Shown here piece by piece: positions 16,624 to 48,603 of a stretch of DNA of 64,000 bases. This DNA comes from Nocardia goodfellowii (GTDB lineage: Bacteria > Actinomycetota > Actinomycetes > Mycobacteriales > Mycobacteriaceae). The stretch is taken from NCBI RefSeq assembly GCF_017875645.1, contig NZ_JAGGMR010000001.1, forward strand, positions 4,340,001 through 4,404,000, given 5' to 3'. The notes beneath the pieces were generated by a model. That model made no database searches and had not been told where the DNA came from. It worked only from the letters and a program-made list of their open reading frames with translations. The position numbers were made by a program, and so were the translations under genes. The first letter of the stretch is position 1. The number at the start of each line of letters is the position of its first letter.

Positions 16624-17730
16624 GTGAGCACTGTCGCCTTCGATTCAGCGCGGGTGCCTTTCGGCTCGCCGGCGCCGGGCTTGGACGCGGGTTTCGAGCA
16701 CTGGCATCGTGCGACCCGTTCGCGAGTGCGCGACGAGCTGACGGAATTCCTGCGGCGGGTGCGGGTGGACGAACTGCGCGCCGCCGGCGTGGACGAGGTG
16801 CTCGCCCAGTACGCCGTCGGTGGCAAATGCCTGCGTTCGACCTTCATGTATCTGGGCTGGCTGTGCGTCCGGGACCCTGATCCCGTCGCTTTGCGCGCCG
16901 CGGCCAGTCTGGAGTTGCTGCACGCTTTCGCGCTGTTGCAGGACGACGTGATGGACGACGCGGTGCTGCGCCGCGGTGCCGACGCGGCCCACGTTCGACT
17001 ATCGGCGTGGCATCAGGGTCGTCCGGAGGCCGCGGCGGGATTCGGGGCGTCGGCGGCGACCCTGGTCGGTGACATGTGCCTGGTGTGGGCCGAACAGATG
17101 CTCCGGGAGAGCGGAGTCGGTGACCACGCGTTGTCGCGGCTGTGGCCGCGATACGACGCCATGCGGATCGAATTGGCGGTCGGGCAGTTCGCGGACCTGG
17201 CCAACGACGCCCGCGAAAGTCCGGCGTTGACCACGGTTCTCGATATCGCCCGCGCGAAATCGGGCAACTACACCGTCCGGCGGCCGCTGGAACTCGGTGC
17301 GGCCCTGGCCGGTGGAACCGAGCCGATCCTGGGCACCCTCGGCCACTACGGAACGCTCATCGGCGAGGCTTTTCAACTGCGTGATGATCTGCTCGGCATC
17401 TTCGGAGCCGCCGGTCGCACCGGCAAGACCGAGGACAGCGATCTGGGGCAGCGCAAGGCCACCAGTGTGGTGGTCGCCGCCCTCGAGATGGCGGAAAGCG
17501 CTGTGCGAGAAGAACTATCGAGTCTATTGGCGCGACCCGACCTCGACGTGGACGCGATCGCCCGCTGCCGGGCGCTGATCGAGATCTCCGGTGCCCCAGG
17601 GCATATCGAGGCGATGATCGCCGACCGGGTCGCCGACGCCCGGCTCGCCTTGCGCGACAGCGTGCTGGACGACGGTCCGCGGCTGGCACTGGAGCACATG
17701 GCGTCGCTGTGCACCGCACGGAATGTGTGA
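16624..17730 (+). CDS. crtE: Geranylgeranyl diphosphate synthase (polyprenyl synthetase)
   Basis: A 368-residue trans-prenyltransferase, called crtE or idsB in relatives. It has the first Asp-rich motif LLQDDVMDDAVLRRG, the second in FQLRDDLLGIFG, and the basic GGKCLRSTFMYLGW near the N-terminus. It condenses C5 units to C20 geranylgeranyl diphosphate, the substrate of phytoene synthase. The GTG at 16624 has an AAGGGGA-type site upstream. As the first gene of a tightly packed operon it feeds crtB. The second motif is DDLLG, seen in several actinobacterial GGPP synthases. Confidence 0.9.
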   Translation: MSTVAFDSARVPFGSPAPGLDAGFEHWHRATRSRVRDELTEFLRRVRVDELRAAGVDEVLAQYAVGGKCLRSTFMYLGWLCVRDPDPVALRAAASLELLHAFALLQDDVMDDAVLRRGADAAHVRLSAWHQGRPEAAAGFGASAATLVGDMCLVWAEQMLRESGVGDHALSRLWPRYDAMRIELAVGQFADLANDARESPALTTVLDIARAKSGNYTVRRPLELGAALAGGTEPILGTLGHYGTLIGEAFQLRDDLLGIFGAAGRTGKTEDSDLGQRKATSVVVAALEMAESAVREELSSLLARPDLDVDAIARCRALIEISGAPGHIEAMIADRVADARLALRDSVLDDGPRLALEHMASLCTARNV

Positions 17731-17743
17731 GGAGAGGACGAGG

Positions 17744-19279
17744 ATGCGCACGGTCAAAGGACGCGGCGACCATATCGTGGTCGTGGGAGCAGGCCTGGCG
17801 GGGTTGTCCGCCGCACTCCATCTGGCCGGGCGCGGGCGGCAGGTGACCGTTGTCGAACGCGAATCGGTGCCGGGCGGACGAATGGGCCGACTGGACCTGA
17901 ACGGCTACCGTATCGACACCGGCCCAACGGTTTTGACCATGCCCGAACTGCTGGACGAACTCTTCGACGCGGTCGGGGAGCGAACCCGTGACCGTCTGGA
18001 CCTGGACCCGGTGGACCCGGCCTACCGGGCGCACTACGCGGACGGCCGAACCTTCGATGTGCACAGCGACGAGAATCGGATGATCGACTCGATCACCGAG
18101 TTCGCCGGTCCCGCCCAAGCCGCGGGGTATCGGGCGCTGCGGTCCTGGCTCACCCGGTTGTACACCGCCGAGTTCGACCGGTTCGTCGCCGCGAACTTCG
18201 ATTCACCGCTGTCGATGTCGATCCCGGCGCTGGCGCGATTGACCGCGCTGGGCGGATTCCGCGGCTGGGACCGCAAGGTGGGACAGTTCATCACCGACCC
18301 GGATCTGCGGCGGGTGTTCACCTTTCAATCGCTCTACGCCGGAGTCGCGCCCGAGCGGGCGTTGGCCGCCTACGCGGTGATCGCCTATATGGACACCGTG
18401 GCCGGAGTGTACTTCCCGCGCGGAGGCATGCGGGCCGTGCCGGATGCGCTCGCGGCCGCGGCCGAAGCCGCGGGAGTGCGCTTCCACTATCGGACCTCGG
18501 TGACCGAACTCGAGCGTGTGGCCGGAAAAGTGCTCGCAGTGCGCACCGAGGAGGGCGAACGGATCGAGTGCGACGCCTTGGTGCTGACCACCGAACGACA
18601 CCGGGCCCACCAGCTGCTCGCCCACCGCTCGCGTCGTCCGATCGCCGTGCGGCCGGCACCCTCGGCGGTGGTGCTGCACGTCGCCTGTGCCCGGGACCGG
18701 CGAATACCGCACCACAGCCTGCTGTTCGGCGCGGCGTGGAACGACAGCTTCCGCGAAATCATCGACGAGGGACGAGTCATGACCGATCCGTCGATCCTGG
18801 TGACCAAGCCGACAGCGGGTGACGGCGAACTCGCCCCCGACGGTCGTGACCTGCTGTACATCCTGGCCCCCGCCCCGAATCTCGGGCGCGGTGGAATCGA
18901 TTGGGAGCGAACGGGTGAGGGATACGCGCAGGAGATTCTTGAGCTCGCCGGACACCGTCTCGGCACCGCCCGTCCGCGCGACACCGAGTTGCTGCGCGTG
19001 GTCACGCCCGCGGACTGGGCGCGCCAGGACATGCTGGCGGGCAGTCCATTCGCCCTGGCGCACACCTTCGCGCAAACCGGTCCATTCCGGCCCGCCAACA
19101 TGATTCGCGGTATCGACAATGTAGTGCTGGCGGGCGGATCGACCCTGCCGGGTGTCGGCATCCCGCCGGTTCTGATCTCCGGGCGGCTGGCCGCCGACCG
19201 GATCACCGGCCCACCCGGGCGCGGGCATCGGGCCACTGCCGTCGCGGTGGCCTCCCGCGCGGATCGGCAGGCGACATGA
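17744..19279 (+). CDS. crtI: Phytoene desaturase (CrtI type)
   Basis: A 511-residue FAD enzyme that desaturates phytoene to lycopene. The dinucleotide-binding motif is VVVGAGLAGLSAALHLAGRG with VVERESVPGGRMG. The C-terminal FAD signature is LAGGSTLPGVGIPPVLISGRLAADR. I chose the ATG at 17744 because GAGGAGAGGACGAGG precedes it; an ATG at 17723 would overlap the crtE stop. The length matches bacterial CrtI (about 490-520). The next gene begins in its stop codon (ATGA), so CrtI and CrtB are co-translated. Confidence 0.92.
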   Translation: MRTVKGRGDHIVVVGAGLAGLSAALHLAGRGRQVTVVERESVPGGRMGRLDLNGYRIDTGPTVLTMPELLDELFDAVGERTRDRLDLDPVDPAYRAHYADGRTFDVHSDENRMIDSITEFAGPAQAAGYRALRSWLTRLYTAEFDRFVAANFDSPLSMSIPALARLTALGGFRGWDRKVGQFITDPDLRRVFTFQSLYAGVAPERALAAYAVIAYMDTVAGVYFPRGGMRAVPDALAAAAEAAGVRFHYRTSVTELERVAGKVLAVRTEEGERIECDALVLTTERHRAHQLLAHRSRRPIAVRPAPSAVVLHVACARDRRIPHHSLLFGAAWNDSFREIIDEGRVMTDPSILVTKPTAGDGELAPDGRDLLYILAPAPNLGRGGIDWERTGEGYAQEILELAGHRLGTARPRDTELLRVVTPADWARQDMLAGSPFALAHTFAQTGPFRPANMIRGIDNVVLAGGSTLPGVGIPPVLISGRLAADRITGPPGRGHRATAVAVASRADRQAT

Positions 19280-20265
19280 CGCGCGCCGAACTGGACGCGG
19301 CCGGAATCACCGATTCGAGTCTGCGTCGGTCCTATCTGTGTTGCCGTGAGCTCAACGCCGCCCACGGTAAGACGTTCTTCCTCGCGACCAGGTTGCTCGC
19401 ACCCGACCAGCGCCCGGCTGTGCACGCGCTCTACGGTTTCGCCCGCCGCGCCGACGATATCCTCGACGACTTCGATCCGGTGCTGACGCCCGCCGATCGC
19501 GCACAGCGTTTGCGCTCGCTCGCCACCCAATTCGACCGCGCGGATACCGCCGGTGACCCGGTGCTGGCCGCCGTGCTGCACACCGCCCAGACCTATCGGA
19601 TACCCCGGCACCTGTTCGAGGCCTTCCTGAGGTCCATGCGGATGGACCTGACGGTGACCGACTATCCCGATCGGGCCGCGCTGGACCATTACGTCTACGG
19701 TTCCGCGGAGGTGATCGGGATGCAACTGCTGCCGGTTCTGGGCACCACCGAATCCGTCGAGGCCGCAACGCCTTTCGCTGCCGCGCTGGGAAAGGCCTTT
19801 CAGCTCACCAACTTTCTCCGCGACGTCGACGAGGACCTGGCGCGCGACCGGGTGTATCTCCCCGCCGACGAACTCGCCGCCTACGGGGTGGATCGGGGAC
19901 TGCTGGAGTGGTGCCGCCGGCGTCGCCGGGTCGACCCGAAGGTCCGCCGAGCATTGGCCGAACAGCATCGGATCACCCGGGACATCTACGCCGAAGCGCG
20001 GCGCGGCATCGAACTGCTGGCGCCACGCTCGCGTCCCTGCGTGGAAACGGCGGCGGTGTTGTACGGGGAGATCCTCGATCGCATCGAGAGTGCTGACTTC
20101 GAGGTATTCGGACGGCGCGCCAGAGTCGGGACCAGGCGTCGCCTGCGGGTCGGTGCGGCAGGATGGCTGCGCGCCCGACGGGCTCGGCGCATACCGCACA
20201 GCCCGGCCGGTCCGGGCACGAGTTCAGAACCGTTCGACACCGCCGAATTCCGTGAACACGGCTGA
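19276..20265 (+). CDS. crtB: Phytoene synthase
   Basis: A 329-residue squalene/phytoene synthase that joins two GGPP into phytoene. It has both Asp-rich signatures: GFARRADDILDDFD and NFLRDVDEDLARDRVYLP. The block YVYGSAEVIGMQLLPVLG is typical of the family. The last ~30 residues are Arg-rich and then weakly ordered. It starts within the crtI stop and ends nine bases before crtYc. Confidence 0.93.
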   Translation: MTRAELDAAGITDSSLRRSYLCCRELNAAHGKTFFLATRLLAPDQRPAVHALYGFARRADDILDDFDPVLTPADRAQRLRSLATQFDRADTAGDPVLAAVLHTAQTYRIPRHLFEAFLRSMRMDLTVTDYPDRAALDHYVYGSAEVIGMQLLPVLGTTESVEAATPFAAALGKAFQLTNFLRDVDEDLARDRVYLPADELAAYGVDRGLLEWCRRRRRVDPKVRRALAEQHRITRDIYAEARRGIELLAPRSRPCVETAAVLYGEILDRIESADFEVFGRRARVGTRRRLRVGAAGWLRARRARRIPHSPAGPGTSSEPFDTAEFREHG

Positions 20266-20273
20266 GGAGAACA

Positions 20274-20624
20274 ATGGAGCACTGGCACTACTCGTTGGTC
20301 CTGGCGGCATGTCTGGCGCTGACCGCCCCGCTCGAGTTTGTCGGACCCGGTGTCTATCGACGTCCGCACCTGCTGTTTCAAGCCCTGTGGCCGGCCGCGG
20401 CGCTCTTCGTCGTCTGGGACCTGGTGGCGATCGCGGCGGGCGTGTGGGATTTCAACGAGCGCTACACCCTCGGAGTGCTGTTGCCGGGCCGGATGCCGGT
20501 GGAGGAGTTGCTGTTCTTTCTCGTGGTACCGCTGTGCGGGCTGCTGACTTTCGTGGCGGTCCAAACGCTCCTCGACCTGGCCGCCCGCCGACGTGGCCTC
20601 GTCTCGAAATCGGCCGGTCGATGA
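20274..20624 (+). CDS. crtYc: Lycopene beta-cyclase subunit CrtYc
   Basis: A 116-residue protein with three predicted membrane helices, matching one half of the heterodimeric actinobacterial lycopene cyclase. The conserved R-x-x-L-x-P-x-R-x-P-x-E-E core is present around YTLGVLLPGRMPVEELLFFL. The start ATG at 20274 follows TGAGGAGAACA. Together with CrtYd it cyclises the ends of lycopene to beta-rings. It overlaps crtYd by 4 bp, in keeping with assembly as a pair. Confidence 0.88.
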   Translation: MEHWHYSLVLAACLALTAPLEFVGPGVYRRPHLLFQALWPAAALFVVWDLVAIAAGVWDFNERYTLGVLLPGRMPVEELLFFLVVPLCGLLTFVAVQTLLDLAARRRGLVSKSAGR

Positions 20625-20953
20625 ACCTCACCAGTGTCGGGTACACGCTGCCGGTGCTGCTGGCGGTCCTCGCCGTGTGCGTGGCCGAGGTGCGGTGGCT
20701 GCGCACGGGATTGTTCCGCCGTCCGGCCTACTGGCTGACGATGTCGATCGTGCTGGGATTTCAGATCCCGGTGGACGGCTGGCTCACGCGACTCGACGCG
20801 CCGATCGTGCTGTACAACCCCGAACATATTCTCGGCGTGCGGTTTCCGTGGGATATCCCGGTCGAGGACTTCTTGTTCGGATTCGCGCTGGTTACCGCGG
20901 CGCTCCTCGGGTGGGAACGTGGCCGGCAGCGGCGCGCGGGTGCCCAGCGGTGA
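20621..20953 (+). CDS. crtYd: Lycopene beta-cyclase subunit CrtYd
   Basis: A 110-residue partner of CrtYc with three hydrophobic helices and the second copy of the core motif, PWDIPVEDFLFGFAL. HILGVRFPWDIP is typical of CrtYd. It begins at the ATG at 20621, which overlaps the crtYc stop, and its own stop overlaps the GTG of crtU. The open frame extends far upstream but has no family character before 20621. Confidence 0.88.
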   Translation: MNLTSVGYTLPVLLAVLAVCVAEVRWLRTGLFRRPAYWLTMSIVLGFQIPVDGWLTRLDAPIVLYNPEHILGVRFPWDIPVEDFLFGFALVTAALLGWERGRQRRAGAQR

Positions 20954-22536
20954 CCGCGGCACATACCGGCTACGGCCGCGATCGGCGGCGCGTACGGCTA
21001 CCCGCGGCGCCTGGGCACCGCAATCTCGGACGCACCACCTCCGCACCGCACGTGGTGGTGGTCGGCGCGGGGATCGCGGGCCTCGCGGCGGCCACGGGGT
21101 TGGCCGAGCGTGGCTGTGACGTCGACATCGTCGAGCGGGAAGAGTATCTGGGCGGCCGAGTCGGCGGGTGGACCGAACGGCTCTCCGACGGGACGCCGGT
21201 GGGGATGAACCGCGGCTTCCACGCCTTCTTCGCCCAGTATTACAACCTGCGAAAGTTGTTGGGGCGTAGCGATCCCCGCTTGGACCGGTTGGTCCGGCTC
21301 ACCGATTATCCGCTGATCGACGCCCAGGGCCGCCGCGACACCTTCCGCGGGCTGCCCCGCACCCCGCCGTGGAACGCGCTGGCCTTCGCGCTGCGCAGCC
21401 CTAGCTTCCGGCTGCGCGACCTGATCCGCATGGACCCGCGAGCCGCCGCGCCCCTGGCCGCGGTGTCGGTCCCCGACATCTACGCCCAACTCGATGACGT
21501 GGACGCGCAAACGTTCCTGCGCGACATCAATTTTCCGGCCCCCGCCCGGCACCTGGCGTTCGAGGTGTTCTCGCGCAGCTTCTTCATCGAGCCCGACCGC
21601 ATGTCGGCCGCTGAACTCGCGACGATGTTCCACATCTACTTTCTCGGATCGAGCGAGGGGCTGGTCTTCGATGTGGCGCGCGACAACTTCGACGTCGGCC
21701 TCTGGTCGCCGCTCGCGGAGTATCTGACCGCACCGCGCACAGCGAGCAAGCCGGGGACCGTGCGCATCCACCGAAAGACATCCATCGAACGCGTCGAGCC
21801 CAAAGGGGCCGGGTTTCTGCTCGTCGACGACACCGGTGCGACGAGGGAGGCCGACGCGGTGGTGCTCGCCGCCGATATCGCCGGTCTCCGTCGCATCGTC
21901 GCCGCCTCACCCGAACTCGGAACTTCCGAATGGCGTTCCCGCATAGCCGCTTTGGCGCTGGCGCCCGCTTTCGCGGTGCATCGGCTCTGGCTGGATCGGC
22001 CGGTGCGCCCGCACCGGCCGGGATTCCTCGGCACCGGCGGAATGGATCCGCTCGACAACATCAGCGTGCTGGATCGCTATGAACGCGGAGCCGCCGAATG
22101 GGCCGCGGCCACCGGGGGAGGGGTCGTCGAACTGCATGCCTATGCCGCGGCCGCGACGATCCCCCCGCCGACCACCCGCAACCAGGTGCGCGATCGGCTG
22201 CTGGCGCGGCTCCACGCGATCTATCCGGAGACCGCGGCGGCGACCATCGTGGGCGAATCGATGTTGTGGCGACAGGATTGTCCACGGTTCTCGCCCGGCG
22301 ACTTCGCCGGCCGTCCCGGCATCGAGACCCCGCACCCACGGCTGGCGCTGGCCGGAGACGGTATCCGGGTCGACCTGCCCGTGGCACTGATGGAACGCGC
22401 CGCGACCACCGGTTGGCTCGCGGCCAACACGCTGCTGCGGCAGTGGGGTGCGGCGGGGCACGAACTGCACTCGGTGCCGGTCCGCGGGCGCTCGACGCTG
22501 CTGCGCGAGTTCGCGTCTCGGGAGCGGGCTCGATGA
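20950..22536 (+). CDS. crtU: Carotenoid beta-ring desaturase/methyltransferase (CrtU-like)
   Basis: A 528-residue FAD-dependent amine-oxidase-fold protein. About 35 Arg-rich residues precede the FAD motif VVVVGAGIAGLAAATGLAERG. EREEYLGGRVGGW, GMNRGFHAFFAQYYNLR and a C-terminal LALAGDGIRVDLPVALMERA follow. CrtU enzymes turn beta-rings into aromatic phi-rings by desaturation with methyl shift, giving isorenieratene or chlorobactene. Position directly after crtYcd supports this; a carotenoid isomerase-like role is the alternative. The GTG start at 20950 overlaps the crtYd stop (GTGA). Confidence 0.85.
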   Translation: MTAAHTGYGRDRRRVRLPAAPGHRNLGRTTSAPHVVVVGAGIAGLAAATGLAERGCDVDIVEREEYLGGRVGGWTERLSDGTPVGMNRGFHAFFAQYYNLRKLLGRSDPRLDRLVRLTDYPLIDAQGRRDTFRGLPRTPPWNALAFALRSPSFRLRDLIRMDPRAAAPLAAVSVPDIYAQLDDVDAQTFLRDINFPAPARHLAFEVFSRSFFIEPDRMSAAELATMFHIYFLGSSEGLVFDVARDNFDVGLWSPLAEYLTAPRTASKPGTVRIHRKTSIERVEPKGAGFLLVDDTGATREADAVVLAADIAGLRRIVAASPELGTSEWRSRIAALALAPAFAVHRLWLDRPVRPHRPGFLGTGGMDPLDNISVLDRYERGAAEWAAATGGGVVELHAYAAAATIPPPTTRNQVRDRLLARLHAIYPETAAATIVGESMLWRQDCPRFSPGDFAGRPGIETPHPRLALAGDGIRVDLPVALMERAATTGWLAANTLLRQWGAAGHELHSVPVRGRSTLLREFASRERAR

Positions 22537-27249: not shown

Positions 27250-28185
27250 ATGGAGAAGGCGACAGAGACAGGCCGGCACGACCTTCGCTCGTCTGCCTGG
27301 TTCCGAGACCAGCGGGATTTCTGGTGGAACGATGACTTCATCGCGCTGCTCGCCGAAAGATGGCGTCTTGACGAGGCGCACTCGCTGGCCGACATCGGGT
27401 GCGGTCTCGGTCATTGGGCACGGTTGCTCTTCCCGTTCCTGGGTCCTGATGCTCGACTGACCGGGGTCGATCGAGAGGTGACCTGGCTGGCGCGTGCGCG
27501 GGAGGTATTCCTCGATGCTTACCCGGCTGCTGTGGCTGCGGGACGCGTGGAATTCGATCAAGGCGACGTGAACTCGCTCGCTCTTCCTGCCGACACATTC
27601 GACGTGGTCACCTGCCAAACTCTTTTGATGCATCTCGACAAACCCGAGCGAGGTTTGGCCGAAATGTTTCGTATCGCGAAGTCCGGGGGTCTCGTCGTTT
27701 GTGTCGAGCCCAGCAATCTGTTCAATATGATGTCGTTCGATTCATGCACCTCTGAACAGTCCACCGAGGACTTGGTGCGGAATTTCGAGTTTTGGCTTCG
27801 ATTCCAGCGCGGCCGGATCGCTTTGGGTAAGGGCGATATTTCGATAGGAGAGCGCCTGCCCGGAATGTTCGCGGAAATAGGCTCGACCGATATAAACGTC
27901 TATCTCCGCGATAAAGCGTTCCCGGTCTACCCTCCGTATTCAGGTCCGGAACAGGAAGCCACACTGGAGCCGATAAAGGCTTGGGAAAGCAGCGACACAG
28001 GGCCGTGGAATTACGCACAACTGGCGCGTTATTTCCTGGCAGGCGAAGGAACCGCGCCGATGCTGGAGTCTCAGCTGGCGGCCATGCGTGCGGAAGGAGA
28101 ACGGCAGTTCAACGCTGTTTCTGAAAAACGATATTCATGCGGCGGCGGCGCTGTCGTATATATCGTCAGCGGCCGGAAACCTTGA
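27250..28185 (+). CDS. SAM-dependent class I methyltransferase
   Basis: A 311-residue protein. Motif I is ADIGCGLGHWARLL, motif II is the acidic end TGVDRE, and LPADTFDVVTCQTLLMHL is the motif IV region, giving a Rossmann methyltransferase of the Methyltransf_11/25 kind. The C-terminal ~120 residues are specific and unassigned. The ATG at 27250 has GGAAGG six bases before it. The gene is visibly richer in A/T than the crt and PKS genes, especially after 27700, and it reads toward the lanthipeptide precursor. It may be part of that locus and methylate the peptide, or be an independent enzyme. Confidence 0.8.
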   Translation: MEKATETGRHDLRSSAWFRDQRDFWWNDDFIALLAERWRLDEAHSLADIGCGLGHWARLLFPFLGPDARLTGVDREVTWLARAREVFLDAYPAAVAAGRVEFDQGDVNSLALPADTFDVVTCQTLLMHLDKPERGLAEMFRIAKSGGLVVCVEPSNLFNMMSFDSCTSEQSTEDLVRNFEFWLRFQRGRIALGKGDISIGERLPGMFAEIGSTDINVYLRDKAFPVYPPYSGPEQEATLEPIKAWESSDTGPWNYAQLARYFLAGEGTAPMLESQLAAMRAEGERQFNAVSEKRYSCGGGAVVYIVSGRKP

Positions 28186-28489
28186 TCTGAGCTCGTCGGC
28201 AACGCCGACAGCCCGTCCGTCGAGCCGTCCGGACAGCCGGCCGCCGGAGCCGGGCTTAAGCCGAAGGGCGCCTTGGCGACCCGGTCGGAACCTCCTCGAT
28301 CGCCGGCGGCCCGTGTCGACGCGCGCAACCCATCTGACGGCGCGGAAATGACCTTGGATCGGACGGCAAGAAGTCTCGGCAACACCGAAAAAATGCGGCT
28401 CCGCAGTCATATACTGGTATGGGTCGTGGGGCGGTCCGTCGAAAAATTCGAACGCGTGCGCCCTGAGGCTCAACACCCAAGGAGGAGCC
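28186..28489 (+). other. 304-bp leader region before the lanthipeptide precursor
   Basis: No gene is supported here. It should hold the precursor promoter: a TATACT box lies at 28410-28415, but no convincing -35 hexamer is at standard distance, so an activator may be needed. AAGGAGGAG just before 28490 is a strong ribosome-binding site for the precursor, suiting high-level translation. Confidence 0.45.
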
Positions 28490-28726
28490 ATGCTCGACCA
28501 GGTCGAAATTGCACATGCGCTCAAGGATAAAAATTACTTCCACTCTCTTCGGCCGGCGGAGCAAGAAGCCGTCGTCACCGCTGGCGGAATCGGGGCTGTC
28601 GATATCAGCGACGAGAGCCTCGAGTCCGTCAGCAGCGGCCTTGAAGGTGGAAGTCAAATGCTTTACACTGGCACGGATGCGCAGGAGGAGGGGGGCTCCC
28701 AGACAATGATCATTTGCACGTGCTGA
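28490..28726 (+). CDS. lanA: Class II lanthipeptide precursor, mersacidin/lichenicidin-like leader
   Basis: A 78-residue peptide. The leader (1-50) has the family opening MLDQVEIAHALKDKNYFHSL and the acidic recognition stretch VDISDESLESVSSG typical of mersacidin/lichenicidin-type leaders. The rest reads LEGGSQMLYTGTDAQEEGG (51-69) and SQTMIICTC (70-78). Candidate cleavage points are Ser-Gly at 50, Gly-Gly at 54 and Gly-Gly at 69. The two Cys are at 76 and 78; Ser/Thr partners are S55, T60, T62, S70, T72 and T77. The CTC end recalls the CIC end of mersacidin. AAGGAGGAG precedes the ATG. The modifying enzyme follows after a hairpin. Confidence 0.85.
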   Translation: MLDQVEIAHALKDKNYFHSLRPAEQEAVVTAGGIGAVDISDESLESVSSGLEGGSQMLYTGTDAQEEGGSQTMIICTC

Positions 28727-28742
28727 GTGATTGGCGATGGTA

Positions 28743-28770
28743 TCTGCGGATGGCTCCAGCCATCCGCAGA
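28743..28770 (+). terminator. Perfect 28-base palindrome between precursor and synthetase (attenuator)
   Basis: Positions 28743-28755 (TCTGCGGATGGCT) pair with 28758-28770 (AGCCATCCGCAGA), followed by ACTTCCTTTT. It begins 16 bases after the precursor stop. A partial terminator here would yield much precursor mRNA and little synthetase mRNA, as in many lantibiotic operons. Confidence 0.8.
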
Positions 28771-28771
28771 A

Positions 28772-28787
28772 CTTCCTTTTGAGGAAG
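28772..28787 (+). promoter_or_regulatory. Small hairpin covering the lanM ribosome-binding site
   Basis: CTTCCT at 28772-28777 pairs exactly with AGGAAG at 28782-28787 across a TTTG loop. AGGAAG is the ribosome-binding site for the ATG at 28795. This would lower LanM translation further, next to the upstream attenuator. The stem is short, so the effect may be modest. Confidence 0.5.
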
Positions 28788-28794
28788 CGCAGCT

Positions 28795-31700
28795 ATGGGC
28801 TCTCTACCTTTTGGTGCGGAGTGGTGGACTTCTCTTACGCTGAATGAGCGCCAGACGCTCCAGGCGGTCGCGCCGCCGGAACCATCGAATACCGAAAATT
28901 CCGCGACGGTCCGCCGCCGGTTCGAGCAGTGGAAATCCCAATCCCCTTTTTGCCGGGAAGACTACTTTGTGCGGCGCCTGGCATTCGACGATCTGGATGA
29001 ATCATCCTTCAGCGATCTGCTGGGCGAGTCCGCGACGGCACTGCAACGTCGGTTCCCACAGGTGCCCTCGTGGCTTGCGCGCATCCAGTCCGCCTACAGC
29101 GCAACGAGTCCCAGCCGCCTGCCGGTAGTGGGGCCCTTGATCGAAAGCGCGAACGCCGAACTGAGTAGAAAAGTCGAAGAGCTCGCGCGCGCGTGGCCGG
29201 ATGTCGATGCCGAATGGGGTTCTCTCGTCGAACAATTGATCAGTGCGATGGTCGCTCGGATCGATGACCGGATCAGCCGGACGGTGGTCCTCGAGATGAG
29301 GGTGGCGGCCCTGCAGGGGACCTTGACGGGCGATGACCCGAGTGCGCGTTTCCGGACTTTCCTGGACCGGTTGCGAGACCCGCGCCATGCGCTACTTTTC
29401 TTGGCACAGTATCCGGTCCTCGCGCGGACGTTGACAGACTGCGTCGACGATTGGACCGAGGCTTCGATCGAGCTGCTGGAACGTGTGTGTGCCGACTGGG
29501 CGAGCATCCAGAGCACCTTCTTGCCCGGCCGCGACGCCGCGCTGACGAGCATCGAAATGGGCTTGGGTGACCTCCACCGCCGAGGTCGTGAGGTATGTGT
29601 CCTGCGTTTCGCTTCCATCGGGCGCGTGCTCTACAAGCCACGGTCCCTGGCGATCGACCAGCACTTCGCACTCTTGCTGAGCTGGCTGCACGAACGAGGT
29701 GCGCCGGCCTTACGCCTGCCGCGCATAGTGGATCGCGGCAGCTATGGCTGGTCCGAGTTCGTCTCGCCGGCTCCGTGCCGCGACCGGGCGGAAGCAGGTG
29801 AGTTCTACCTGCGTCAAGGCGCATTGCTCGCGGTTCTCTACCTGTTGAACGCCAACGACTTTCACTACGCGAATCTGATCGCGGCCGCGGGGTACCCCGT
29901 CCCCGTCGATCTCGAGACCCTCTGCGGTCCGGATTTCGGGCAAGCGCAGGAGGACTCCTACGATTCGTACTCAGCATTCGAACTGGCGACCTCGGTGGTC
30001 GGCACCATGCTGCTGCCGTACTCGGACGACAATGCGGGCCGGCGTGCGGTCGACCGCAGCGGACTGGGCTCGCGCGAAGGGCAGCTGTCGGCCGATCCGA
30101 TGCCGCGATGGGATCACCTCGGTACCGACGAAGCCCGCCTGTCGTTCGAGCGGCGTACGTTGTCCGCGGGACACAATCGGCCCGAACTCGACGGTTCTGC
30201 CTTGCATGCGTGCGAGTTCACCGCGGAAGTCGAAACAGGATTCTCCGCGATGTATCGCCTGCTTGAGTCGAATCGCGAAGACCTGGTATCGCCCGCGGGT
30301 CCGCTGACCGCCATGCTGAATGACGAAGTGCGCGTGGTCTTTCGAGCGACACAGTTCTACGAGAAGATCCTTCGCCAGAGCTACCACCCGGACTACCTCA
30401 GCGATGCGCTCGATCGCGAGCGGCTTTTCGATCGCCTCTGGTTCGGCATGGATCGGACGCAGTTCCCCCACATCACACGTCGATTGCTGTCGAGCGAACG
30501 CCAGGATCTCTGGCGCGGCGAAGTCCCTTATTTCAGTACGTGCGTCGGGTCACCGGATCTGACCGCGAGCGACGGCAGACGTATCGACCAGTTCTTCATC
30601 CGTTCGGGATGGGACATGGTTCAGCACCGGCTGGCTTCGCTGGGAGAAACGGACCTGCGCACGCAACTCTGGTACATCCGCGCCTCGCTCAGCACCCTCG
30701 CGCTCAACAACGAGACCACCTTCCAGCGTTACCAGGCCCCGGTCGACGCACGACCGGCCGATCGCGACCGCCTGCTTGTTCAGGCCACAGCGATCGCCCA
30801 GCGTATTTCCCGGCTCGCTCGATGGCGAGAGGACCGCGCGTCATGGCTCGGGCTGGCCTACGGGGAAAGCCGTGGCTGGCAACTGCGTCCGCTGCAAACC
30901 GACCTGTACAGCGGCCTACCCGGCGTCATCCTGTTTCTCGCCTATACGGAATCGCTGGACGGGCGGGGCGAGTTCGGGGCTGTGGCACAGGGGGCGATGC
31001 GGACACTGCGCCAGCAGATGAACCGCCGCCGCACCGGATCGGAAGGCATCGGCGGATTCGACGGCTGGGGCGGGCTCCTCTATCTCTGGGCGCATCTTTC
31101 CCAGCTGTGGAGCGACCCAGGGCTGTTGGGCGAGACCGACGCGATGGTTTCCCGGGTCGAGTCGCTGGCGAACTCCGACGATCACCTCGATGTCATCCAG
31201 GGAACAGCCGGCGCGATCGTTCCGCTGCTGAACCTGCACACAATGACTGGTGCGGTGCGGCCGCTCGAGGTGGCCCGAAAACTCGGTGACCGTCTTGTCG
31301 AACGAGCGCAGCCCGCCACCGGAGGGGTTGGCTGGCTCGGCACTACGTTCCCCACCCACCCTTTGACCGGGTTCTCGCATGGCGCGTCCGGGTTCGCGTG
31401 GGCGTTGGCGGAACTCTTCGCCGCCACAGGCGACGACAGCTACGCGCGCACCGCGCTCCGAGCCGTCGCCTTCGAACGCGCCCACTTGTCGCGAGATTCC
31501 GGAAACTGGGCGGATCTCAGGCAATCTCGGCGAGGGCGGAATCTTCGGGAGATGACCGCGTGGTGCCACGGTGCGTGCGGCATCGGCATGAGCCGCTTGC
31601 GGATGCTCGACATCCTCGGCGACTCGACTCTCGCCGAGGATCTGGATATCGCGCTCCGGACGACATACCGGCAGGGGTTCGGCGTGAATCACTCGCTGTG

Positions 31701-32040
31701 CCACGGCGATCTCGGATCTCTGGATCTGCTCCTCCAGGCCGGCCGTCGCTTTCCTGCGGCGGGTTGGGAATTACTGCTGTCCGAACGGGTCTCGTCGAGC
31801 CTTGCCGGCATGGAAGAGCATGGCTGGCGGTGCGGCGTTCCGCTGGACGTGGAGACTCCCGGCCTGATGGATGGGCTGGCCGGGATCGGTTACCAGCTCT
31901 TGCGCCTGGCCGAGCCGGATGGGATCCCCTCGGTGCTGATCTTGGAAGGACCCCGTGGGGTCACGCTCCCGGCGACCCGAATATCGACATCGTCTGCGAG
32001 GGAAGGATATTTCCACCATGGTGCAGGATCGAACACATAG
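28795..32040 (+). CDS. lanM: Class II lanthipeptide synthetase LanM
   Basis: A 1081-residue bifunctional enzyme. The N-terminal dehydratase (DUF4135, about residues 120-700) has the kinase-like residues in RVLYKPRSLAID, the catalytic NDFHYANLI at ~354-362 and VPVDLETL at ~373-379. These phosphorylate and eliminate Ser/Thr. The C-terminal LanC domain (~700-1070) has the zinc ligands C924 in WCHGACGIG and C969-H970 in LCHGDLG, i.e. the normal Cys-Cys-His set. It installs lanthionine/methyllanthionine in the LanA peptide. The length is typical of LanM. The next gene starts inside its last 23 bp, in another frame, so the two are co-translated. Confidence 0.93.
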   Translation: MGSLPFGAEWWTSLTLNERQTLQAVAPPEPSNTENSATVRRRFEQWKSQSPFCREDYFVRRLAFDDLDESSFSDLLGESATALQRRFPQVPSWLARIQSAYSATSPSRLPVVGPLIESANAELSRKVEELARAWPDVDAEWGSLVEQLISAMVARIDDRISRTVVLEMRVAALQGTLTGDDPSARFRTFLDRLRDPRHALLFLAQYPVLARTLTDCVDDWTEASIELLERVCADWASIQSTFLPGRDAALTSIEMGLGDLHRRGREVCVLRFASIGRVLYKPRSLAIDQHFALLLSWLHERGAPALRLPRIVDRGSYGWSEFVSPAPCRDRAEAGEFYLRQGALLAVLYLLNANDFHYANLIAAAGYPVPVDLETLCGPDFGQAQEDSYDSYSAFELATSVVGTMLLPYSDDNAGRRAVDRSGLGSREGQLSADPMPRWDHLGTDEARLSFERRTLSAGHNRPELDGSALHACEFTAEVETGFSAMYRLLESNREDLVSPAGPLTAMLNDEVRVVFRATQFYEKILRQSYHPDYLSDALDRERLFDRLWFGMDRTQFPHITRRLLSSERQDLWRGEVPYFSTCVGSPDLTASDGRRIDQFFIRSGWDMVQHRLASLGETDLRTQLWYIRASLSTLALNNETTFQRYQAPVDARPADRDRLLVQATAIAQRISRLARWREDRASWLGLAYGESRGWQLRPLQTDLYSGLPGVILFLAYTESLDGRGEFGAVAQGAMRTLRQQMNRRRTGSEGIGGFDGWGGLLYLWAHLSQLWSDPGLLGETDAMVSRVESLANSDDHLDVIQGTAGAIVPLLNLHTMTGAVRPLEVARKLGDRLVERAQPATGGVGWLGTTFPTHPLTGFSHGASGFAWALAELFAATGDDSYARTALRAVAFERAHLSRDSGNWADLRQSRRGRNLREMTAWCHGACGIGMSRLRMLDILGDSTLAEDLDIALRTTYRQGFGVNHSLCHGDLGSLDLLLQAGRRFPAAGWELLLSERVSSSLAGMEEHGWRCGVPLDVETPGLMDGLAGIGYQLLRLAEPDGIPSVLILEGPRGVTLPATRISTSSAREGYFHHGAGSNT

Positions 32041-33220
32041 CTTTGCCGGCCTGATCGCCCCGGTGACGAAGAGCGAATTCATCGACAAGTACTGGGGGAA
32101 GTCGACATTGGTGCTGCATCGAACCGAGCCTGACTACTTCGGTAGCCTGTTCTCGCTGGCGGACTTGGATGCTTGCCTGATGACGGCAGCGAACAGATCG
32201 TCGAAGATCCTGCAGGTAATTCCGCCGCCGAGCAGCGGGCGTAGCTCGATACTCACTTCGGTGTCCGCACTCTCCAAAGATCGGCTCTACGACGCGTATC
32301 TCTCCGGAGATACGATCAGGCTGCTCGGCGTCGAGAAAGTATGGCCCCCGTTCGAGCTGTTGGCGGCCGACGTTCGTGAAGCCCTCGACGTGGAAATCGG
32401 ATTCAATCTCTTCCTGACCCCGCCGAACTCGCAAGGGTTCCCGACTCACGTCGACACACTGGACTCGTTCATCGTTCAAATAGCGGGAGCCAAACAATGG
32501 TACATCTGGGATCCGATATATGATCGGCCGTTGGGCTCGCAACGCTCGAATGAGTTAGTTGCCGGTATGAAGTGGGCCGAAGAAGAATTGACGCTTCGCG
32601 ACAAGCCGGTCCTGAAGGCCGGTGATGTGGCATATCTGCCCCGTGGCTTCTTTCACAAAGCTGTCGCGGGGGACGAGTTCTCGCTTCATGTGACGATTTC
32701 TTTTCATCCGCTGACCTGGGTCGACTTCTTCGGTCGGGCTGTGGAGTTGGCGGCTATGGAGGATCTGGAACTTCGTCAGGATCTGCCGCCGGGGTTCGTT
32801 CAAGATCGAGAGAAGCAGGAGCACATGTCGCTTGTCTTCGCGCATCTGCTGGACCGGCTCAGTAAGACATTGTCCTTCGAAGCAACCCTCGGTTCACTGG
32901 TCGACGAGCAGGTGAGCGCGCGGACCTTTCCACCGGACGGCCACTTCTCTGTTCTCGCCGGTCTCGACGAGATCGGCCCGAATTCGACCGTCAACCGGAG
33001 AAGCGGCCTGGCTTGCCTCGTCGAAAACGCCGGGAGTACCGCGGTGATCAGGTTCGGGCCGAAAAGGGTGGAAGGTCCGAAGGGGATTCTCTCGACCCTC
33101 GAGTTCATTCGTGATCACCGCACCTTCCGCGTCCGCGATCTGCCGGACTCGGTGAGCCTGAACAGCAAGATCACCCTGGTCCGGCGATTGATCCGCGACG
33201 GGCTGCTCCGCCCGGTGTGA
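32018..33220 (+). CDS. JmjC-type Fe(II)/2-oxoglutarate oxygenase (MINA53/NO66/RoxA-like)
   Basis: A 400-residue protein with a double-stranded beta-helix. The iron triad is H144 and D146 in FPTHVDTLDSFIVQIAGAK plus H224 in EFSLHVTISFHPLTW. The stretch LKAGDVAYLPRGFFHKAV is typical of ribosomal-oxygenase-like JmjC proteins, which hydroxylate peptide side chains (His or Arg). A wHTH-like C-terminal tail (FRVRDLPDSVSLN...LIRDGLLRPV) also matches that subgroup. The ATG at 32018 has GGAAGGA upstream and overlaps lanM by 23 bp. Its tight coupling to LanM suggests it hydroxylates the lanthipeptide or its precursor; a ribosomal role cannot be excluded. Confidence 0.82.
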   Translation: MVQDRTHSFAGLIAPVTKSEFIDKYWGKSTLVLHRTEPDYFGSLFSLADLDACLMTAANRSSKILQVIPPPSSGRSSILTSVSALSKDRLYDAYLSGDTIRLLGVEKVWPPFELLAADVREALDVEIGFNLFLTPPNSQGFPTHVDTLDSFIVQIAGAKQWYIWDPIYDRPLGSQRSNELVAGMKWAEEELTLRDKPVLKAGDVAYLPRGFFHKAVAGDEFSLHVTISFHPLTWVDFFGRAVELAAMEDLELRQDLPPGFVQDREKQEHMSLVFAHLLDRLSKTLSFEATLGSLVDEQVSARTFPPDGHFSVLAGLDEIGPNSTVNRRSGLACLVENAGSTAVIRFGPKRVEGPKGILSTLEFIRDHRTFRVRDLPDSVSLNSKITLVRRLIRDGLLRPV

Positions 33221-33240
33221 TCCATCAGCGGCGCTCGCCG

Positions 33241-34452
33241 TTACGCCATCGCGAGCACACATGGCAGGCTGTCGGGCGCTGACAGCCGCAACAGCGAGTA
33301 CCCGATGCCCGCAACGCCTGGAAAGAGCCGCGGGTCGACGTCCGTGCCGTTTGCGAGCTTCAACGAGTAGCGACCCTGCTCCCGCGCTCGCTGCATTACC
33401 CGGGTCGCTATCGCAGCTGCCGCATCGAGATAGCCGGGTTCCCGCAGGGCACTGGCCGCATAGACCAAAACATCTATCCGGCCACTGTTTCCGCAGCAGA
33501 GGTCATCCGTTTCAGATAGTCCCGGCGCACCGGTTGTTTCGAGCATGTGCACGGTATCGCCGGGCTGCCGACGAGAGGTGACCCTGCTCAGCGCGATGTG
33601 TCCCAGGGCGATTCCGGGGGCGCCTTTGCACCAAGAGTTCAGGAAGCGGTCGTCCAGGGTCGGTGCCTGCCGCGGCCCGGATGGCCCCGAGGAGGCCACG
33701 TCAGCAAACAGTCGCGGCACCATCTGCCACAGTTCAGGACGGTTCGTTCGTTCGTAGAGCCGCGCGAAAGCGGCGCCGATGCCCGCCCTTCCATGGCAGA
33801 AGCCTGCTGCCGCAGGCCCTTCGGCCGATATCCATTCGTCGGACCGCGAAAGGTGACGTGCACAGCGCACGGCAAGCTCCAGGGGCCGTTCGCCGCCCGC
33901 AATTCTCTTCGGACGCCGTTCGGCGAGCGCCAGCAGAGCCATTATGGCGCCGGCACTGCCGATCATGACATCGTGTTTCGCGGCGGCGATACGGTCGGCA
34001 CTCAGCAGCCTGGCAGCGATCTGTGCATCGTCGGCGAACGATTCGTCGTTCAACAGATCGCCGATCCGCACCAGGGTATAGATGACCGATCCGAGGCCGG
34101 CGAGTCCGCCGAGCGGTTGCTGGAGTCGTTGCATTCGGACCGGGTCGGCACAGATCTGACGAATGTCGGCGCGCACCGGGGCGATCGCCCGCTCGGAGAT
34201 CTCGCGGAATTCGTCAGCATCGAAGACTTTCGCCATCGCTGCGAAGAACAGAGAGATGCCCGCGGTGCCGGCGTAAAGATGTGGTCCTAGAACTGGCGGT
34301 CGAGCCGACGGGACCGGTTGGTGCCAGTACATACCTCCGTCGCGCGCGATACGCGCATTCCCCCGGAGCAGATCGGCAACCTCCACCGTGGCTTGCACCA
34401 GCGAAGTCTGGAAGCCCGCGTTTCGATGGGCCATGACCCGCCCGTCAGGCAC
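33241..34452 (-). CDS. Stand-alone LanC-like cyclase with Cys-Cys-Gly zinc motif
   Basis: A 403-residue (alpha/alpha)6-barrel protein of the LanC family. Motifs are LYAGTAGISLFFAAM, AGFCHGRAGIGAAFA, NSWCKGAPGIALGH and DLCCGNSGRIDVL, with a final FPGVAGIGYSLLRL. The first zinc Cys is in WCKG. At the usual Cys-His pair it has Cys-Cys (CCGN), the arrangement of ProcM-like LanM cyclases, so zinc would be held by three Cys. It is a free-standing protein on the opposite strand to lanM, ending 20 bp from the JmjC gene. GTG 34452 lies just after the upstream stop; ATG 34434 is the alternative start. It may finish or redirect ring formation. Confidence 0.85.
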   Translation of the reverse strand: MPDGRVMAHRNAGFQTSLVQATVEVADLLRGNARIARDGGMYWHQPVPSARPPVLGPHLYAGTAGISLFFAAMAKVFDADEFREISERAIAPVRADIRQICADPVRMQRLQQPLGGLAGLGSVIYTLVRIGDLLNDESFADDAQIAARLLSADRIAAAKHDVMIGSAGAIMALLALAERRPKRIAGGERPLELAVRCARHLSRSDEWISAEGPAAAGFCHGRAGIGAAFARLYERTNRPELWQMVPRLFADVASSGPSGPRQAPTLDDRFLNSWCKGAPGIALGHIALSRVTSRRQPGDTVHMLETTGAPGLSETDDLCCGNSGRIDVLVYAASALREPGYLDAAAAIATRVMQRAREQGRYSLKLANGTDVDPRLFPGVAGIGYSLLRLSAPDSLPCVLAMA

Positions 34453-34455
34453 GGC

Positions 34456-35298
34456 TCAGCGATAGGCGCCGATGCCATGCATGCGCATCTCCAGCAGATC
34501 ATCGACTGGTACGCCATCGTGGCCTCGGTCTCGGACGCCGCGAATGAACTGCGGTGTCACGCCATGTATTCGCATAATGGTCAGTTGCTCGGGTGTGGTC
34601 GAGTTCTGATAGCCGAGTGTCTGAAGTTCCTGAATCAGCGCCGGGCTGACGCCGTGGATCCGCATCTCCAGCAGATCATCGACCGAAATACCGTCATAGC
34701 CGAGATCGTGAAGCGCACGGATGAATTCCGGTGTCACGCCGTGGATCCGCATGAGAATCAGCTGCTCGACGGTGATCGAGTTCCGGTAGCCGAGTGTCTG
34801 GAGTTCCTGAATCAGCGCCGGGCTGACGCCGTGGATCCGCATCTCCAGCAGATCATCGACCGGCACCCCTTGATGGCCCAGAGCGCTCAGCTCCCGGAGA
34901 AAGGCCATGCCGATATTGTGAATCGCCAGCCGGAAAAGGTCTGCGACGGAGAAACTTCCGTAGCCGACGCTGCGCATGGCCGCGGTGAACCCCGTGCTGG
35001 GCTGGAAGACAAACTCTCCGCCGCCCTGGCCCGCACCGACATGACCTTCGAACGCGATGGCCCCGGTATCGCGGATAAGCTTGAAGCGCGCTTGCGCATG
35101 TTGGGAGAGCAGTTCCTCCGGTGCTAGGCCGGGCAGCGCCGAAAGCCGAACTCCCACCGCACTGGTGGAATTGGGTGCACCGCTGGTCGGGCGAATAGTC
35201 AGATGGACCAGATCGTCCGGTTTTGCGTATCTGACCGCCCACGTGCCCGCGAGCGCTACGGTTGGACGATCTTTGTCGAAATCCTGACGTGCGTCCAT
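34456..35298 (-). CDS. HGV-repeat protein of unknown function
   Basis: A ~280-residue soluble protein. Residues 1-~105 form an unassigned beta-rich N-domain (TWAVRYAKPDDLVHLTIRP, then LAPEELLSQHAQARFKLIRD). From ~120 to the end run five helical repeats of 29-30 residues with the consensus RIHGV-[ST]-P-x-[LF]-I-x-x-L-x-x-L-G-Y...[DE]-x-L. The first has diverged (AIHNIGMAFLRELSALGH) and a sixth is cut short (RMHGIGAYR). Such repeats occur in M56-peptidase-like and other proteins of acidobacteria and bacteroidetes, where they are also unassigned. The stop is 4 bp before the LanC-like gene, so the two form one operon. ATG 35298 or GTG 35310 could be the start; neither has a good ribosome-binding site. 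Confidence 0.75.
   Translation of the reverse strand: MDARQDFDKDRPTVALAGTWAVRYAKPDDLVHLTIRPTSGAPNSTSAVGVRLSALPGLAPEELLSQHAQARFKLIRDTGAIAFEGHVGAGQGGGEFVFQPSTGFTAAMRSVGYGSFSVADLFRLAIHNIGMAFLRELSALGHQGVPVDDLLEMRIHGVSPALIQELQTLGYRNSITVEQLILMRIHGVTPEFIRALHDLGYDGISVDDLLEMRIHGVSPALIQELQTLGYQNSTTPEQLTIMRIHGVTPQFIRGVRDRGHDGVPVDDLLEMRMHGIGAYR
34470..34960 (-). repeat. Coding tandem repeats, 59-residue (177-bp) higher-order unit
   Basis: Two alternating 29/30-residue HGV repeats form a 177-bp unit. The segment around 34620-34680 recurs almost exactly around 34797-34857. Within the gene, copies alternate between an ALIQELQTLGY type and an FIRALHDLGY type. High DNA identity suggests recent duplication of the unit. 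Confidence 0.75.
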
Positions 35299-35447: not shown

Positions 35448-36953
35448 TCACGCAGGGGCGGGCGACAGTTCGGTGTCGACTGTCTTCTCTTCGGCGTCAA
35501 GGTGTTTGGCGCGGAGGAACGCGGCGACCAGTACGGCACCGAGTAGCACGATGAGGGCGTCGACCAGGATCGAGAATCGGACCCCGCCGAGGATGGTGTC
35601 GGGTGGTTGAGAGGCAAGGTCGCCGGATACTCCCATCCAGGCCACGGCGATGGCGCTGAGAATGGGAGTGCCGAGTGTGAAGCCGATTTGCTGGGTCAGT
35701 GAGGCCAATGCGGTGGCCAAACCCTGTTCACTGTCGGGCAGGGCCGAGGTGGCGGTGATGGTGTAGGAGACGACGGCCCAGACGTGGCCGACTCCGCTGA
35801 TCGCGGAAGCGATGAGCAGGACTGTCATGCCGGTGCCGGTCCGCTCGCCGATCAGCAGCAGGGCGGCGGTCGCGACGGCTTGCACGATCAGGCCGAGGAT
35901 GAGGGTATCCCGAGGCCCGAAGCGGGCGACGACCTTCGGTGCGATCATGCCGCCGCTGAACACGCCGAGACCGAGCAGGGCGAAGGCCAGTCCGGTGGTG
36001 AGTACGGAAAGACCGAGGACCTGTTGCATATAGATGGTGAGCAGGAACGAGAGCCCACTTTGCATGGACAGAGTGAACAGCCCGGCGATATTGCCCCACT
36101 TCACCGTCTTCCTGGTGAGCACCCGCAGGGGCGCGAGCGGCTCCGGGGCGCGGAGTTCGATGAGGATGAATGCAGTCAGCAGGGCGGCGGCGATCAGGAG
36201 GGTCACCAGAGTTTCGGCGCTGGCCCATCCGTTGGTCTGGGCGCCGGTGAGGCCGTAGATCAGTGCGAGCAGGCCCAGGGTGACGGTGAACGCGCCCGGC
36301 AGATCCAGTCGTTTGGCCTGTTCGCCCCGACTGGGCGCGAGCACCAGTGGCGCGCAGATCAAAATAAGGATTCCCACCGGCACGTTGACGAAGAAGTTCC
36401 AACGCCAGCTGAGCAGATCGGTGAGCACCCCGCCGAGCAGGGCGCCGAAGGCGAACCCGAGCGACAGCAATGCGCCGTTGAAACTCAGGGCCTTGTTGCG
36501 CAGCGGACCTTCCGGGAACGAGGTGGTCAGCAGTGCGAGAGCGGCGGGCAGTACCGCCGCGGTGGCCAGACCCTGGGCTACCCGCGCGGCCAGCAGCACG
36601 CCCGGATCCTGGGCGAGCCCGCCGATCAGCGAACCGACGGTGAGCACGGCGATCCCCGCGAGGAATATCCGGCGCCGCCCGATGCGGTCGCCGATGCGCG
36701 AGAACAGCAGCATGAACCCCGCCGAGGCGAGCGCGAAGGCGGTGATGATCCATTGCAGATTGCTGAGGGAGAACCCCAGGTCTTCGCCGATGACCGGTAG
36801 CGAGACGGTGAGAATCGAGAAGTCGACGGCGATCATGAACGTCGCGCCGAGGAGCGCGGCCAGGGTGAGTCGGTGACGGGATGTCATGCGTGGCTCGGCA
36901 TCGGCCGGCTCGTCGGCGACCGCGGCGGGCGCGCGGTCGTTGGTGTCTGTCAT
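35448..36953 (-). CDS. DHA2-family MFS multidrug transporter (EmrB/QacA type)
   Basis: A 501-residue, 14-helix drug:H+ antiporter. It opens with RHRLTLAALLGATFMIAVDFSILTVSLPVI and has motif A FSRIGDRIGRRRIFLAG. VAQGLATAAVLPAALALLTT and the motif C-like GFAFGALLGGVLTDLLSWRWNFFVNVP are typical of DHA2. A cytoplasmic tail of ~30 polar residues ends it. It is divergent from a MarR gene, the usual repressor for such pumps. It could export a product of the neighbouring clusters but could equally be plain drug resistance. Confidence 0.9.
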   Translation of the reverse strand: MTDTNDRAPAAVADEPADAEPRMTSRHRLTLAALLGATFMIAVDFSILTVSLPVIGEDLGFSLSNLQWIITAFALASAGFMLLFSRIGDRIGRRRIFLAGIAVLTVGSLIGGLAQDPGVLLAARVAQGLATAAVLPAALALLTTSFPEGPLRNKALSFNGALLSLGFAFGALLGGVLTDLLSWRWNFFVNVPVGILILICAPLVLAPSRGEQAKRLDLPGAFTVTLGLLALIYGLTGAQTNGWASAETLVTLLIAAALLTAFILIELRAPEPLAPLRVLTRKTVKWGNIAGLFTLSMQSGLSFLLTIYMQQVLGLSVLTTGLAFALLGLGVFSGGMIAPKVVARFGPRDTLILGLIVQAVATAALLLIGERTGTGMTVLLIASAISGVGHVWAVVSYTITATSALPDSEQGLATALASLTQQIGFTLGTPILSAIAVAWMGVSGDLASQPPDTILGGVRFSILVDALIVLLGAVLVAAFLRAKHLDAEEKTVDTELSPAPA

Positions 36954-37009
36954 CGGTCAATGCCTTTCGGGATGGTGAAGAGCGGGCACTGCGCAGTGCG
37001 ATTAGCTTA

Positions 37010-37045
37010 AAGCCAGAACTATTAAAGCTGCAAGTATTCAGGCTT
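37010..37045. promoter_or_regulatory. Imperfect inverted repeat between MFS and MarR genes
   Basis: AAGCCAGAA at 37010-37018 and TTCAGGCTT at 37037-37045 are complementary except at one position, in the A/T-rich space between the divergent genes. A smaller GCTTAAAGC palindrome overlaps the left arm. It is a plausible MarR operator covering both promoters. Confidence 0.45.
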
Positions 37046-37069
37046 GATGCTGTTTGCTACGCTGGTCTC

Positions 37070-37522
37070 ATGGGAAACGCCAGGTCGAGCGCCGAATTGT
37101 CCGCACGCGATCTGTGCGGCTTGGTCAATCAGCTGGCCCGGCAGATCCAGGACCATGTCCACGTCTGCGCCGCCGGCCTCGGTCTCACCGCCCCGCAGGC
37201 GATGGCGCTGCACGAGCTGGGCGCGGCGCTGACCATGCGCCAGTTGGCCGATCGGATGGCCTGCGAGCCGTCGAACATCACCTTCGTCATCGACAAGATG
37301 GAGAATCTGGACCTGGTCGAACGCCGGCCCCATCCACACGACCGGCGCGCCAAGCAATTGGTCCTCACCCCGCGCGGTCGCGACCTGCGCACCGAACTGC
37401 TGCACGTGATGTCGCTGGAGTCCCCGCTCGGCGAATTGACCGCGGGGGACCAGGACCAGCTGCGCGAGCTGTTGCTGCGAGCGGTCGGCCGCGGAGCTGA
37501 ATCCGAGTCGGCCCGAATTTAG
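37070..37522 (+). CDS. MarR-family regulator of the divergent efflux pump
   Basis: A 150-residue MarR protein: an N-terminal dimer helix (LSARDLCGLVNQLARQIQDH), the recognition region LADRMACEPSNITFVIDKME and the wing RRPHPHDRRAKQLVLTPRG. The D-x-R-x wing signature (HDRRAK) is typical. The ATG at 37070 is preceded by the operator-like repeat; the frame upstream to 36881 overlaps the MFS start and is not used. It very likely represses the DHA2 pump. Confidence 0.85.
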   Translation: MGNARSSAELSARDLCGLVNQLARQIQDHVHVCAAGLGLTAPQAMALHELGAALTMRQLADRMACEPSNITFVIDKMENLDLVERRPHPHDRRAKQLVLTPRGRDLRTELLHVMSLESPLGELTAGDQDQLRELLLRAVGRGAESESARI

Positions 37523-48602: not shown

Positions 48603-48603
48603 G
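48585..48603. promoter_or_regulatory. 19-base perfect palindrome at the MFS stop codon
   Basis: CCTACGGTCGGACCGTAGG is self-complementary around one central base and contains the TAG stop (48600-48602). A related ACCTACGGGT lies ~35 bp upstream. It could act as an operator for the 163-bp promoter space before the accC gene or as a short terminator; sequence alone does not decide. Confidence 0.4.

Follow-up and report, generated by a model that had tools for sequence, protein, structure and literature searches.

The locus at positions 27250 to 35298 of the window (the whole 64,000-nucleotide stretch of Nocardia goodfellowii DNA that we analysed) is, judging from its sequence, probably a class II lanthipeptide cluster that has moved horizontally and belongs to a distinct subfamily, characterized by two cyclases and a JmjC oxygenase. 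It is a real, conserved variant of class II lanthipeptide biosynthesis, apparently unreported in the open-licence literature. In the accessible portions of that literature we found neither a lanthipeptide cluster with a JmjC enzyme nor a matching product; the preliminary description of this DNA had named a published cluster of identical composition and known product as a finding that would refute its reading.

Genes and setting of the locus

All six genes lie where the preliminary description had placed them. On the plus strand, a class I SAM-dependent methyltransferase gene (MT; 27250..28185, ATG start; Methyltransf_11, 63.2 bits) precedes the gene for the LanA precursor (28490..28726), which encodes 78 aa, a 54-aa leader ending in GG and a 24-aa core SQMLYTGTDAQEEGGSQTMIICTC. 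An intergenic RNA hairpin (28743..28770, plus strand; fold z -3.74) separates lanA from the gene for the LanM class II synthetase (28795..32040), and the 3' part of lanM overlaps by 23 nt the gene for a JmjC oxygenase of the ribosomal-oxygenase type (32018..33220, ATG start). The stand-alone lanthionine cyclase gene (LanC-like; 33241..34452, minus strand) is convergent with jmjC at a distance of 20 nt, and forms a tight minus-strand pair with the gene for an HGV-repeat protein (HGV; 34456..35298, ATG start). LanM, JmjC, the LanC-like protein and MT passed curated family cut-offs; neither LanA nor HGV did so.

As had been noted, the locus is less GC-rich than its surroundings (62.4%, compared to 67.3% for the remaining window), and only 2 of 560 windows of the same size had equally low GC. 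The source genome comprises 7.98 Mb in two contigs. Elsewhere in the window, positions 16624-22536 hold consecutive carotenoid-like genes (polyprenyl synthetase, amine-oxidase-type desaturases and squalene/phytoene synthase), and positions 48460-61734 hold a type II polyketide-like cluster with biotin carboxylase, aromatic-ring hydroxylases, two ketosynthases, ketoreductases and polyketide cyclases.

Conservation and probable mobility of the gene set

We compared the locus with other genomes and found lanA-lanM-jmjC facing the stand-alone cyclase, in the same order, in Nocardia wallacei and Actinomadura sp. WMMA1423. By tblastn, the N. wallacei genes were 55% (lanA), 68% (lanM), 65% (jmjC) and 58% (cyclase) identical, and those of Actinomadura 78%, 68%, 72% and 56%, respectively. 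The search for the gene set in other nocardial genomes, suggested in the preliminary description, thus turned up this four-gene core in N. wallacei. The full set of six was present in Actinomadura, where an HGV homologue (47%) adjoins the cyclase and an MT homologue (68%) adjoins HGV, but not in N. wallacei, where HGV was not found at the locus and no close MT homologue was found in the genome (best match, 48.1 bits). MT and HGV are accessory, since both are missing at the N. wallacei locus. The claim of a distinct lanthipeptide system is supported as regards a second cyclase type and a probable oxygenase, the core being found in three loci and two genera, and is weaker for methylation and the HGV protein.

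Close relatives of the core genes were rare. JmjC matches occurred in 18 of 150 Nocardia genomes and LanC-like matches in 11 of 150 (source genome included in both), but only the source genome and N. wallacei gave JmjC matches above 500 bits (949 and 598; next, 159) or near-full-length LanC-like matches above 400 bits (892 and 466). In the family of the Actinomadura carrier, 341 genomes were compared; 142 had some JmjC match, and the carrier alone had a close one (659 bits; next, 178). One genome of this family carries three JmjC homologues inside 9.4 kb (L101, G434:C17:116331-125686). The flanks of the three loci have no ordered gene in common, and nearby MFS genes are 29-32% identical. Both other islands were also lower in GC than their flanks (58.5% vs 68.9%; 61.7% and 60.9% vs 70.5%). 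The cluster appears to have been horizontally acquired. In Actinomadura, jmjC and the cyclase gene are separated by a 4.2-kb stretch (L040:11203-15433) that is a later insertion, as indicated by its Mu-transposase and AbiEii-type genes and its GC content of 71.1%.

HGV has a different distribution. Its predicted model (pLDDT 88.1) combines a beta domain with helical-hairpin repeats. Among 148 Nocardia genomes it was detected in two, the source genome and one with a marginal 22.6-bit match within a universal-stress-like frame, and the family occurred in 30 of 199 Acidobacteriota genomes; it is mainly acidobacterial among the genomes searched. Five aligned acidobacterial HGV-repeat proteins share the beta domain and repeats at 31-43% identity. 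They start with signal-peptide-like stretches (read by eye), whereas the window's HGV starts without one. At the four of these five loci that were checked, HGV adjoins M56 (BlaR1) or MacB/FtsX permease genes; no M56 or MacB-type gene was found among the scanned neighbours of the window's HGV, nor among those ORFs that were scanned at the Actinomadura locus. No lan homologues were found in the acidobacterial HGV loci examined. The preliminary description had proposed that homologous loci with JmjC, LanC-like and HGV genes in the absence of lanA/lanM would count against the system; we found such loci for HGV only. The Nocardia and Actinomadura versions seem to share HGV and MT as a later addition, possibly from an acidobacterial source.

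Linkage beyond the sequenced loci was assessed by a proxy, identical longest-contig size between protein clusters, in which each row is one 90% cluster and the absence of a shared size has little meaning. We compared 36 JmjC, 110 of 112 LanC-like and 16 LanA rows. JmjC and LanC-like rows had 12 contig sizes in common, WMMA1423 among them (offset control mean 0.16, maximum 2), JmjC and LanA 8 (mean 0.015, maximum 1), and LanC-like and LanA 5 (mean 0.08, maximum 1); five sizes were common to all three. For two of the 12 matches, Nocardia sp. NPDC048505 and NPDC004068, the same organism name appeared in both lists. These contig sizes suggest 11 further JmjC/cyclase linkages beyond the sequenced loci. 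A 75,813-base Thermoanaerobaculia contig holds two JmjC homologues (P0017, P0032) and has no matching LanC-like row.

Pairwise distances of JmjC and LanC-like proteins were correlated (r 0.88, 14 pairs; 0 of 5000 shuffles as high), with 11 of the 14 pairs resting on contig size and not on read DNA. LanA and JmjC distances were also correlated (r 0.80, 8 pairs; 51 of 5000 shuffles as high), and LanA and LanC-like distances showed no clear correlation (r 0.30, 8 pairs; 935 of 5000). Because the shuffles ignore genome relatedness, the correlations support shared descent rather than prove interaction.

These results bear on a simpler account, in which LanA and LanM suffice for an ordinary class II cluster and the other four proteins (JmjC, stand-alone cyclase, HGV and MT) are carried along as passengers. 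Such an account gains from the bifunctional LanM, which has a CHG cyclase motif of its own, and from the absence of MT and HGV at the N. wallacei locus. However, jmjC overlaps and follows lanM and the cyclase faces jmjC in all three loci, and JmjC and cyclase recur together beyond chance. We consider the passenger explanation improbable and favor a core in which all four genes take part.

Precursor, cyclases, oxygenase and export

The LanA-LanM pair has the features of class II: LanA carries a GG-type leader, with Ser/Thr and Cys in the core. A protein search gave 16 LanA rows, including the window's own, and the alignment comprised 17. Mean pairwise identity was 70% for leaders and 38% for cores. 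In all 17 rows, position 60 is T, position 62 is T or S and the peptide ends in CxC, with the T-x-T/S and CxC motifs 15-22 residues apart. No core residue is invariant apart from these four, and the cores give no pointer to the JmjC target. The placement of T-x-T/S near the core start and of CxC at the end suggests two long thioether rings. Two core cysteines were present in 12 of the 17 rows; since the other five cores have three or four, ring patterns may differ between precursors. A second GG inside the window's core leaves open a shorter core. The lanA-lanM hairpin, also present in Actinomadura (z -4.53) and N. wallacei (z -5.18), is probably a partial terminator.

LanA had been called mersacidin-like, a label that proved too strong. 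The lipid II motif of mersacidin is CTxTxEC. Direct reading of the window's core did not reveal this motif, and the window's LanA matched no Pfam or NCBIfam family, TIGR03898 included, at E 0.01; the Actinomadura LanA scored 16.3 bits against TIGR03898, below the cut-off of 23.5.

LanM scored 914.3 bits against TIGR03897 (cut-off 304), 400.2 against PF13575 (DUF4135) and 215.9 against PF05147 (LANC_like), and resembles LicM2 (E 8.7e-145). Its CHG motif is also present in both partner LanMs of the other carriers. Acidobacterial LanMs 39-41% identical to that of the window were also detected (L142:13241-14000, L143:4506-5099); their loci each encode two or three short precursors with a common leader and RRCCP- or FHCC-type core ends.

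The stand-alone protein scored 141.5 bits against PF05147 (cut-off 23.2) and carries FCHG, WCKG and CCGN motifs. This fold and the zinc ligands WC and CC/CH-G place it in the stand-alone LanC superfamily. Against TIGR03897 it reached 232 bits across the cyclase portion of the model; the cut-off for a whole LanM is 304. The CCG motif was present in the 59 LanC-like rows inspected and WCKG in 38 of them. In a tree of 69 rows, a 100/99 branch split the WCKG group from the LanM group, and the clade containing the 38 WCKG rows comprised 40. We rejected the possibility that the protein is a fragment of its partner LanM, given the separate WCKG/CCG clade and the CHG of LanM. The second cyclase type that had been proposed is thus recognizable as a CCG-type stand-alone protein, in its own clade, beside a CHG LanM. 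In the parts of two papers available to us, the CCG zinc motif is described as a mark of more reactive, promiscuous cyclases (PMC10027976; PMC11251773).

It may be asked whether this protein still is a cyclase or has become a peptide-binding scaffold, or serves in proofreading or self-protection. LanM already supplies a cyclase, and the clade has Lys in WCKG where LanMs have His. Eukaryotic LanC-like proteins have other roles, which would also fit such a change of function. Conversely, the inspected rows keep both zinc-ligand motifs, WC and CCG, together with the HG of FCHG, as one would not expect of a dead scaffold. We regard the loss of cyclase function as unlikely, though somewhat less so than the passenger account, and retain the protein as a probable second cyclase.

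JmjC scored 73.9 bits against PF08007 (cut-off 22), and its predicted model is a full-length NO66 fold with barrel, dimer helices and C-terminal winged helix. Residues H144, D146, H213 and K159, which we take to be the NO66 iron ligands and 2OG-binding Lys, were unchanged across 19 JmjC rows, and the HxD...Q..GxK pattern was present in all 14 JmjC rows of the paired set. The protein is probably an oxygenase, and the hydroxylation proposed in the preliminary description is plausible from the modelled fold and the HxD...H set. The JmjC family in general has no fixed link to lanthipeptides: among 58 wider-family loci, many of them short, 56 showed no lan genes.

The nearest solved relatives of JmjC hydroxylate ribosomal proteins, and it might likewise act on a host protein, as NO66 and YcfD do, for self-protection rather than in peptide tailoring. 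Against this stand the co-conservation of the JmjC clade with lanA, lanM and the cyclase and the correlation of LanA and JmjC distances described above. A further argument is that, as far as the accessible portions of two reports go, the JmjC enzyme of the biphenomycin RiPP pathway (BipG/BpmG) gamma-hydroxylates ornithine in its precursor (PMC12707348; PMC12257519). We judge a host target to be of low probability, and peptide tailoring is our preferred reading.

No C39 peptidase was found in the window, and the only copy in the source genome lies 1.5 Mb from the locus, in agreement with the reported lack of LanT. That distant exporter gene (L124:8966-11242) has the active-site Cys region; its neighbours (transketolase, PhyH, inositol-phosphate synthase-like and BTAD) mark another biosynthetic locus. 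The same search detected C39 in 8 of 14 control genomes and none in N. wallacei (draft, about 390 contigs) or the Actinomadura genome. A LanT supplied in trans is accordingly possible in the source genome only, and C39 cleavage at GG is unlikely as a rule for this family, since the other two carriers have no detectable C39. When 30 further predicted ORFs in the window were scanned with Pfam, only three transporters were revealed, all MFS (11289, 35448 and 37632). The nearest, at 35448-36953, has a divergent MarR gene (36881-37522), as described earlier; no transporter is common to the three loci. The preliminary description took LanM to be normally paired with LanT in class II loci, which is too general, as cinnamycin-type clusters are not known to carry a C39 LanT.

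Proposed pathway and comparison with known systems

According to our model, the conserved leader of LanA would recruit the enzymes, and LanM would phosphorylate and eliminate Ser/Thr, including the invariant T-x-T/S, to give dehydro residues. The CxC cysteines would then add to the T-x-T/S sites and close two long methyllanthionine/lanthionine rings, either overlapping or nested, whose ring residues would be about 15-22 apart, with the LanM CHG cyclase and the stand-alone CCG cyclase sharing or correcting ring closure. JmjC, its winged helix holding leader or core, would hydroxylate the peptide; MT and HGV, where present, would be optional additions. An unlinked peptidase would cut the leader at GG, and the product would exit via an unlinked pump. 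Tentatively, and with less confidence than in the cluster itself, we picture the product as a doubly bridged hairpin with a variable loop, its rings split between the CHG and CCG cyclases and its scaffold oxidised by a JmjC enzyme whose winged helix would bind the leader.

If correct, this would be, within reach of our searches, the first case of a JmjC ribosomal-oxygenase enzyme in a lanthipeptide pathway and of a separate second cyclase in a class II one. An oxygenase family known for ribosomal-protein hydroxylation would be joined to lanthipeptide tailoring, ring formation would be divided between two cyclases that differ in zinc type, and the reason for the promiscuity of CCG cyclases could be tested in trans with a single natural substrate. 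The stretch separating the invariant ring residues varies freely, in sequence as well as in length, and this would make the scaffold attractive for variable-loop display.

Class II clusters of the LicM2/CylM type likewise have a LanM that combines DUF4135 with LANC_like and passes TIGR03897, and a GG-leader LanA; unlike them, the present locus adds a stand-alone second cyclase and a JmjC oxygenase and has no linked C39 LanT. The D-CCC LanMs (ProcM/SyncM-type) have the CCG zinc motif in common with the stand-alone cyclase, but at this locus the CCG domain forms a protein by itself, in its own clade, beside a CHG LanM. JmjC shares the fold and the HxD...H/Lys residues of the NO66/MINA ribosomal oxygenases (PF08007), from which it differs in being bacterial, about 25% identical and encoded by a gene overlapping lanM. 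DurX of duramycin and the P450 of NAI-107 belong to enzyme families other than the JmjC ribosomal-oxygenase type. In the part of the source available, both are linked to side-chain hydroxylation in lanthipeptides (PMC10373908), the role proposed here for JmjC. BipG/BpmG is likewise a JmjC enzyme that tailors a ribosomal peptide; in the portions available (PMC12707348; PMC12257519) its substrate is an ornithine in a non-lanthipeptide, whereas the core of the window's LanA contains neither Arg nor Lys.
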